Shown here one piece after another: positions 45,081-46,205 of a stretch of DNA of 57,812 bases. Positions within the stretch are counted from its first letter, which is position 1, and each line of letters opens with the position of its first letter. Source of the stretch: Sedimentitalea xiamensis (GTDB taxonomy: Bacteria > Pseudomonadota > Alphaproteobacteria > Rhodobacterales > Rhodobacteraceae); contig NZ_JASNJE010000029.1 of the NCBI RefSeq assembly GCF_030164465.1, positions 1 through 57,812 on the forward strand, given 5' to 3'. A model generated the notes under the pieces. The model did no database searches. It worked only from the letters and a program-made list of their open reading frames with translations, and was not told where the DNA came from. A program made the translations under genes and the position numbers.

Positions 45081-46205
45081 TCATTCCGCCAGCCTTTTCG
45101 CCGCCCAGCGCGCCGCATCCGCGACCGCCGGGTCCCCGTCCCCGGCCAGCCCCTGCGCCACCGCCCGCAATTCCGGCCGCCCGGAATTGCCGATGGCGTA
45201 AAGCACGTTGCGCACGAACCGGTCCCGGCCGATCCGCTTGACCGGAGAGCCGGAAAACAGCGCCCGGAACCCGGCGTCGTCCAGCCCCGCCAGCTCCGCC
45301 AGCTTCGGGGCGACCAGGTCCGGTCGCGCCGCATAGCGCATGTCGCTCGCCGCCACCGCGAACTTGTTCCACGGACAGGCCGCCAGGCAGTCGTCGCAGC
45401 CGTAGATGCGGTTGCCCAGCTTCCCGCGCAGCGATTCCGCCACCGGCCCCTTGTGCTCGATGGTCAGGTAGGAAATGCAGCGCCGCGCATCCAGCCGGTA
45501 GGGGGCCGGGAAGGCATCGGTCGGGCAGACATCCAGGCAGGCCCGGCAGGATCCGCAATGATCCCGCTCCGGGGCATCGGCGGGCAGTTCCAGCGTGGTG
45601 AAAACCGACCCGATGAAGGCCCAGTTTCCCCAGTCCCGGCTGACCAGGTTGGTGTGCTTGCCCTGCCAGCCCAGCCCGGCCGCCTGCCCCAGCGCCTTTT
45701 CCGGCACCGGTGCCGTATCCACGAACACTTTCACGCCTACGGGCGTGAAAGTGTTCGCGTGCGCGTCAGTCGATTGCCCCGCAATCGACGAGAGCGGCAC
45801 CCGATTCCCGTCTCGCGCATCCCGCTCACCCTCAGCAACCAGCCACCGCGCCAGCCGCTTCAGCCGTTTCTTGACCAGGTCGTGATAGTCCCGGTTCTGC
45901 GCATAGACCGACACCGCCCCCCGGTCCGGCCGCGCCAGCACCGCCACCGGGTCGTGTTCGGGCGCATAGCTCTCCGCCAGCATGATGACCGACCGCGCCT
46001 CGGGCCACAGCGCCGCCGGGTTTCCCCGCCAGGCCGTGCGCTCGGCCATCCACCCCATCTGCCCGTGATACCCGGCGTCGAGATAGGCCGCCAGCCGCGC
46101 CGGCACCTCCGGCACATCCCAGGGCCGGCACACCCGGCAGGCGGCAAAGCCCAGCGCCCCGGCCTCCCGCACCATCCGCGCCTTGAGATCCGCCGCGCCC
46201 TTCAT
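45081..46205 (-). CDS. queG: Epoxyqueuosine reductase with an in-frame insertion
   Basis: 374-aa cobalamin-dependent Fe-S enzyme making queuosine in tRNA. Two 4Fe-4S motifs are intact: [16 protein letters not shown] and [14 protein letters not shown]-terminal [12 protein letters not shown] and [19 protein letters not shown] are diagnostic. Between LVAE and [10 protein letters not shown], about 30 residues (GERDARDG ... ANTFTPVG) have no counterpart in the family as I know it; their DNA is strongly palindromic. The frame is kept, so the protein may still work. The ATG at 46205 lies inside a dispersed repeat, with GGAG 13 bp upstream also repeat-derived; an ATG at residue 11 is the alternative. 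Confidence 0.9.
45722..45830. repeat. Palindromic in-frame insertion inside queG
   Basis: Two perfect hairpins stand in a row: a 16-bp stem CGAACACTTTCACGCC / GGCGTGAAAGTGTTCG with loop TACG (45722-45757), and a 9-bp stem GTCGATTGC / GCAATCGAC with loop CCC (45769-45789). A weaker GAGCGG / CCGCTC pair (45792-45827) follows. The outer arm of the first hairpin is the native VKVFV coding sequence, so the inner arm is its inverted copy. The block corresponds to the ~30 extra residues of QueG. Confidence 0.8.

Follow-up and report, generated by a model that had tools for sequence, protein, structure and literature searches.

An in-frame insert in the queG gene of Sedimentitalea xiamensis contains a structured repeat that is dispersed in Rhodobacteraceae

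The queG gene of Sedimentitalea xiamensis, which codes for an epoxyqueuosine reductase, contains an insert that holds one copy of a short structured repeat dispersed in the Rhodobacteraceae. The gene lies in the window, by which we mean the whole stretch of 57,812 nucleotides that was analysed (contig NZ_JASNJE010000029.1); coordinates refer to this stretch and, apart from the gene itself, features are given on the plus strand. The explanation that we favour, at a probability of roughly 80 %, combines three parts: the dispersed repeat inserted antisense into a loop of QueG, fold-back copying of host DNA added a hairpin, and the in-frame result was selected.

queG occupies positions 45081-46205 on the minus strand and encodes 374 amino acids in a frame that stays open across the insert. 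Both the QueG_DUF1730 and the double 4Fe-4S domains were matched in the product, in agreement with the sequence-only reading, which had described the reading frame and the Fe-S part as intact. The same reading had reported a perfect 16-bp hairpin with a 4-base loop followed by a perfect 9-bp hairpin, and both were confirmed at the positions given: the arms of the first (45722-45737 and 45742-45757) are 16 nt long with 100 % identity and a 4-nt spacer, those of the second (45769-45777 and 45781-45789) are 9 nt long with 100 % identity and a 3-nt spacer. Read along the plus strand, a native arm (45722-45737) is followed by a TACG loop, the inverted copy of this arm (45742-45757), the element (45758-45803) and a stretch resembling the native loop. 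In simulations using a first-order Markov model, not one of 20 windows reached a hairpin of 14 bp, against one in the real window, so the 16-bp hairpin is not a chance product. For hairpins of at least 9 bp, the window has 11 compared to a simulation mean of 5.4 in 20 runs; it is thus generally richer in short hairpins, and the 9-bp hairpin alone is unremarkable. Folding z-scores at the queG hairpins were -5.1 for the RNA of the coding strand and -6.7 for the DNA of the plus strand. The outer arm of the first hairpin is antisense to the queG codons for (G)VKVFV. As KVFVD does not vary among 39 aligned QueG proteins, the inner arm is the copy. This bears out the earlier proposal of a native outer arm with an inverted copy as its partner. 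A further perfect hairpin (10-bp arms, 4-nt loop) is present at 45167-45190 in the C-terminal region of queG and is probably due to chance in conserved codons.

The loop between RW-x-x and the KVFVD strand (RW-L-V and VKVFVD in the window's QueG) comprises 34 residues here; in 68 of 80 QueG loci of a public collection it is no longer than 8 residues. Four relatives of the same genus have loops of 23, 20, 11 and 6 residues, the one of the nearest relative (G001) being just 11 residues shorter than the window's. Among 28 further loci, 27 of them measurable, nine have a loop of at least 20 residues, seven of these without the element. Because long loops occur also without the element, this loop, probably a surface loop, is tolerant to length, and length alone proves nothing. 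About 30 residues had been called unexpected for the family; the loop is indeed long, yet its length varies, and the insert best accounts for about 22 of the 34 residues. Judged from the loops of the relatives, the limits of the element and the coordinates, the insert is probably an in-frame addition of 66 bp or 22 codons (45738-45803, R135-V156) made up of the TACG loop, the inverted copy and the 46-bp element; its limits are inferred, since an empty queG site in the same species was not seen. The adjoining 27 bp (45804-45830) code for GERDARDGN, comparable to AEGER of G001, and by this comparison are probably a native part of the variable loop. The span originally claimed (45722-45830) therefore holds the insert, but its last 27 bp probably do not belong to it.

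An AlphaFold model of the window's QueG (mean pLDDT 87.7, residues 139-153 below 50) places the insert as an unstructured loop between a helix (107-131) and a strand (158-162), and alignment with QueG of B. subtilis (5d08) leaves 3 residues at this position. According to PMC4646009, the active-site residues of QueG from S. thermophilus include a DYH motif and an Asp. We take residues 106-108 and 163 as their equivalents, which flank the loop and are intact. As the active-site residues on either side of the loop are intact, the enzyme is predicted to keep its function: judging from the model, the 22 extra residues would form a disordered loop in a working enzyme.

Evidence for dispersal of the element came from searches with and without a model. 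A BLAST search with the insert DNA, in which no model was used, matched 7 other genomes among 295 genomes of the family. The matches in G183, G162 and G174 belong to a group of copies described below as subfamily A and show differing hairpin sequences joined by the same short segments (the stretch in G162 is degenerate), G248 contributed a copy of a second group, subfamily B, and in G291 a GGCAG-hairpin-CGAGAG unit lies beside the match. The two remaining matches (G268, G295) look like chance. The pattern GCGCGGCAG-N12-42-GAGAGCGGCACC was found in 4 of 295 genomes and its reversed control in none; pattern matches on 7 viral contigs were taken as chance, because they gave no stacked hairpins when folded.

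A covariance model (R1), built from four copies including the window's, found matches at E<=0.05 in 79 of 394 family genomes, and a second model built from 57 matches (R2) matched 35 of 36 genomes in a set mostly picked because R1 had matched there. The window's copy at 45758-45803, antisense to queG, was recognised with E-values of 5.4e-11 (R1) and 3.3e-10 (R2), the window being among the training rows. The host genome (G000) has at least 7 R2 matches at E<=0.05, of which 5 were inspected, and the other four inspected copies lie within or next to ORFs that resemble transposase genes (weakly so for L228; L229 and L230 are nearly the same sequence). Two species of the same genus carry at least 13 and at least 17 copies, a third at least one and a fourth none. 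At the level of the class, a model scan matched 8 of 385 genomes (E<=0.001), 5 of the 8 outside the family. Per genome, 15 candidates were scored in the large scans and 150 in the chosen set, so that copy numbers are lower bounds, and the E-values of the models are rough. The background of R2 is low, as the 564 kb surrounding 84 QueG genes gave no match even at E<=1. A 10-mer overlap rule reduced 111 model matches to 76 distinct flanking contexts, a biased sample drawn from fetched loci that are mostly model matches; 75 other distinct contexts thus group with the element of the window, and one queG copy (L107, in G176) stands outside the 76. At one locus beside a tRNA-Val gene (L184, G183:C285:42314-42525), three copies of the element are arranged in tandem about 87 bp apart.

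The 16-bp arm and the second hairpin had themselves been suggested as repeats to look for in the host genome, and in this literal form they are not repeated. The arm was found nowhere else in the host with up to 1 mismatch and at 5 other places with 2 mismatches (reversed control: 1), and the 21-bp second hairpin nowhere else with up to 3 mismatches. Of nine weak matches in the host genome, six were inspected, and folds and a motif scan revealed no element in them. A search of 8 loci against Rfam at E<=1 gave one match, far below the gathering score and on L136 outside the element core, and the sequence words of the element occurred in the open-access literature only in unrelated contexts. No description of the element was found in Rfam or among the open-access papers listed by the searches, and an earlier description elsewhere is possible; the GGCA/GAGA repeat, named after its internal loop, appears to be an undescribed family.

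These matches bear directly on a purely local origin, by which two independent template switches in queG would have made both hairpins without any mobile element. Both queG hairpins are perfect, the 16-bp arm inversely copies adjacent native DNA, and template switching is known to produce perfect hairpins (PMC8794818). Nevertheless, the stretch 45758-45803 is matched by R1 (with the window as one of its four training rows), other copies are located at unrelated loci in other genera, and the segments between the hairpins, besides the hairpins themselves, are common to other genomes. A local origin is largely contradicted by these shared unpaired segments and we regard it as very improbable.

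The element measures about 40-50 bp and is composed of an outer stem, a nearly constant 4x4 internal loop (GGCA/GAGA) and an apical hairpin whose sequence varies while its pairing is maintained. In the main form, the outer stem reads GTGCGC / GC-G-GCAC and the apical stem has about 9 bp. The window's copy starts with the 5' side of the outer stem P1 (GTGCGC, 45759-45764; pairs counted in the alignment), followed by the 5' side of the internal loop (45765-45768), which is GTCA here and GGCA in most copies, the apical stem P2 of 9 bp with a CCC loop (45769-45789), which is the second hairpin, the GAGA of the internal loop (45790-45793) and the 3' side of P1 consisting of GC, a bulged G and GCAC (45794-45800). 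GGCA and GAGA are each present in 43 of the 51 copies of alignment A3, and GGCA in 35 of the 37 copies of alignment A4. For 51 distinct copies, 96.5 % of 715 cells are paired (74.2 % after shuffling), changes on both sides were seen at 12 of 15 pairs (7.2 after shuffling) and the covariation score is 0.52, compared to 0.14 for shuffled and 0.02-0.09 for slid versions, all in an alignment that was fitted to the model and so leans toward it.

A motif rule splits the 76 contexts into subfamily A (39) and subfamily B (37), and the two differ in a companion hairpin. A strict hairpin immediately 5' of the element was detected in 17 of 38 A copies (L156 was excluded due to its short flank; shuffled: 0 of 190) and in none of the 37 B copies (shuffled: 0 of 185). 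The other 21 A copies fail the strict test, with RNAfold giving imperfect hairpins for some of them. Many A copies thus directly abut a hairpin in which host DNA forms the outer arm and an inverted copy of that arm the inner one, and the queG copy is one of these. The outer arms of A copies are made of the last codons and the stop of rplP, lepA, tuf or an ABC-F gene (based on Pfam for representatives) and, in L184, of the 3' end of a tRNA. By manual count, 22 of the 39 A contexts follow the stop of one of these four genes, including one at a duplicated ABC-F end, 8 have a tRNA gene not more than about 200 bp away, 2 are in queG and 7 elsewhere. At rplP, the arms derive from the coding end in L162, L167 and L173 and from past the stop in L159, L169, L178 and L199; as the companion hairpin differs between species at one and the same gene, it turns over. 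A 77-base A query matched no plasmid record. Two arrangements were observed besides: in L158, L160, L161 and L171 a second, diverged ABC-F 3' end seems by eye to be present downstream of the element, as at attachment sites of integrated islands, and in L165/L189, L176, L227 and L232-L234 a tRNA-Ile and a tRNA-Ala are flanked by elements. The usual place of this tRNA pair is the ribosomal RNA spacer.

The positions of the A copies raise the question of a functional RNA, for example a 3' UTR structure of translation genes, that is not mobile and reached queG by chance spread or for regulation. The preference for ends of rplP, lepA, tuf and ABC-F genes and for the neighbourhood of tRNAs is in line with this idea, as are the conservation of structure despite the turnover of the stems and the order at all 7 of 7 rplP loci, where the element is preceded by the region of the stop codon and followed by a GC-rich inverted repeat. 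It is at odds with the queG copies, which are antisense and internal in all three cases, with the L165 copy, which is antisense beside tRNA-Ile and tRNA-Ala, and with subfamily B, which is found in or beside transposase genes and has empty sites at three of them. We therefore consider an immobile functional RNA unlikely. Function as RNA and mobility can both be true in an exapted mobile element, and the clustering of the sampled A copies at the ends of translation genes and at tRNAs suggests domestication.

Subfamily B has the form ATTGCCCGGCAG...GAGAGGGG and no companion hairpin; in 15 of 37 contexts its left flank reads CCA[T/C]TGC[C/T]CGGCAG. Manual reading revealed a transposase, IstB or integrase ORF over the element or not more than 80 bp away in 22 of the 37 contexts, counting L197:890 by its plasmid annotation and L228 by a match below the Pfam cut-off. 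Two more contexts are within about 320 bp of such ORFs, 2 are next to tRNAs, and the remaining 11 gave no match of this kind. For 35 of the 37 contexts (all but the pair at tRNAs), the Pfam search covered 98 ORFs; 60 ORFs were searched singly and three more besides. Comparison with empty sites in named plasmid records, for an IS21 istB and two IS3 genes, showed clean insertions of 43, 40 and 42 bp. With regard to MITEs, which combine terminal inverted repeats with a target-site duplication, such a duplication was not evident at these three insertion sequence sites, where the ends are uncertain by 1-2 bp. A 55-base B query matched 69 plasmid records, 25 of them over at least 80 % of the query, including records from Leisingera, Phaeobacter and Dinoroseobacter shibae. 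A GTGCG following a hairpin is also a cue for group II introns, an idea that was dropped because subfamily B lacks GTGCG.

Clean insertions of this size invite comparison with REP-like elements moved by a Y1/RAYT transposase. Size, palindromy, the lack of a visible target duplication and the partly fixed left flank of subfamily B would fit such a mover. Y1_Tnp (PF01797) was found in 7 of 55 genomes searched, the host among the 7; all 7 bear the element, and the domain was absent from all 19 genomes searched in which the models had no match. On the other hand, there is no Y1_Tnp match in 28 of 35 R2-matched genomes, so that Y1 is no general resident mover, nor in G176, and the element has no GTAG foot. 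The link is weakly supported and a Y1/RAYT transposase as the mover is, in our view, quite improbable. The host genome itself has 8 Y1_Tnp matches, several of them fragmentary (contigs C4, C26, C27, C57, C60 and C65), and its four relatives of the same genus have 0, 0, 0 and 1.

A common family feature would be expected in most QueG proteins of the Rhodobacteraceae, and the sequence-only reading had named such a finding as evidence against an insertion. In the model scan, the element was absent from the QueG of 84 loci (80 of the public collection and four of the same genus, G001-G004) and present in 2 of 28 further loci, G122 and G176, in the same loop, antisense and in frame (L038 and L109 are the same DNA, so that the 112 loci scanned are 111 at most). 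The outer arm in G122 is the same 16 bp as in the window, with a different apical stem; in G176 both the first hairpin and the stems differ from those of the window. Two further observations concern this loop: within queG of G122 (L192), a 22-bp piece around the apical stem is repeated exactly with the frame kept, and the variable loop in G015 (L108) has two other perfect palindromes with 8- and 9-bp arms that lack the GGCA/GAGA core. The latter case indicates that the loop may collect palindromes.

Whether the copies in G000 and G122 go back to a single event, inherited from a common ancestor or passed on by gene transfer, with stems later rewritten by compensated changes, is evenly balanced. 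Both have the same site and an identical 16-bp outer arm, both have TFTPVG ahead of VKVFVD, a position at which PE or GGE is seen in many relatives, and a tree joining them was not rejected (p-AU 0.104). The free gene tree, in contrast, places G122 outside the window's group (support 84/89, a weak fork), and the element was not found in QueG of the window's genus (G001-G004). The alternative to a single insertion whose stems were rewritten is that the tolerant loop received separate insertions.

Returning to the favoured explanation, the 46-bp element would have landed antisense to queG in the length-tolerant surface loop, and the adjacent 16 bp would have been copied by fold-back together with this insertion or after it. 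In such an event, the nascent 3' end may snap back over a 4-nt loop, copy itself and continue, and selection would have retained just an outcome of 66 bp that is free of stops and in frame. Template switching creates and maintains perfect hairpins, as described in PMC8794818, and its fold-back form is our best inference for the source of the host-derived 16-bp arm, although covariation under selection could yield the same pattern. An inverted duplication by template switching, one of the two origins first suggested for the insert, hence stands for the arm but cannot by itself explain the 46-bp element. A bolder and rather doubtful extension is a new kind of mobile hairpin that integrates by fold-back synthesis templated by its target, perhaps mediated by RNA or a reverse transcriptase at the ends of abundant transcripts. 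If true, each A copy would gain a private hairpin complementary to its target (rplP, tuf, lepA, ABC-F, tRNA or queG), which would then be kept for its structure.

Among known systems, the palindromic elements of Rickettsia (RPE) were the other origin first suggested. According to PMC2229807, RPE are palindromic repeats of 105-146 bp with terminal inverted repeats that insert in frame in conserved protein genes and occur also in RNA genes. The likeness holds in kind, since the queG copy is a dispersed element inserted in frame in a conserved protein gene. The element differs from that description by its 46 bp (66 bp for the inferred insert), its fixed 4x4 loop and its host-derived hairpin; moreover, the second hairpin turned out to be the apical stem of the 46-bp repeat and the first a host-derived companion confined to one subfamily. 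CGTC-tagged REP are short palindromes found mainly in Alphaproteobacteria, with intragenic copies and without an associated transposase; PMC3733652 gives them a CGTC tag, 8-9 bp stems that almost always open with A-T, loops of 4-5 nt and, in most cases, a CCA tail, and this set of tag, stem and tail was not seen by eye in alignment A3. With GTAG REP and their RAYT, the element shares the form of short hairpins scattered over genomes and differs by the lack of a GTAG foot (alignment A3, by eye) and of Y1 matches in most model-matched genomes.

An integron attC is a folded single-strand site with an outer stem, a bulge, an unpaired middle and a variable end, bordered by R boxes (GTTRRRY / RYYYAAC). 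The general layout of the element is alike, but direct reading showed that the R boxes are not in the window's copy. Quasipalindromes made by template switching resemble it in their perfect hairpins, which arise by reverse-complement copying (PMC8794818; see above); such switching would cover the host-derived arm and the turnover of the stems, not the shared element. Two questions become accessible to tests through the fixed loop, the compensated stems and the companion hairpin: by what means REP-like repeats that lack their own transposase are moved, and whether bacterial hairpins are made and renewed by template switching. Taken together, the element lacks those defining features of RPE (size), CGTC REP and GTAG REP (tags, stems, transposase) that were tested, but it works like an RPE or REP and adds an apparently undescribed family to the intragenic palindromic repeats, a class best known from Rickettsia.
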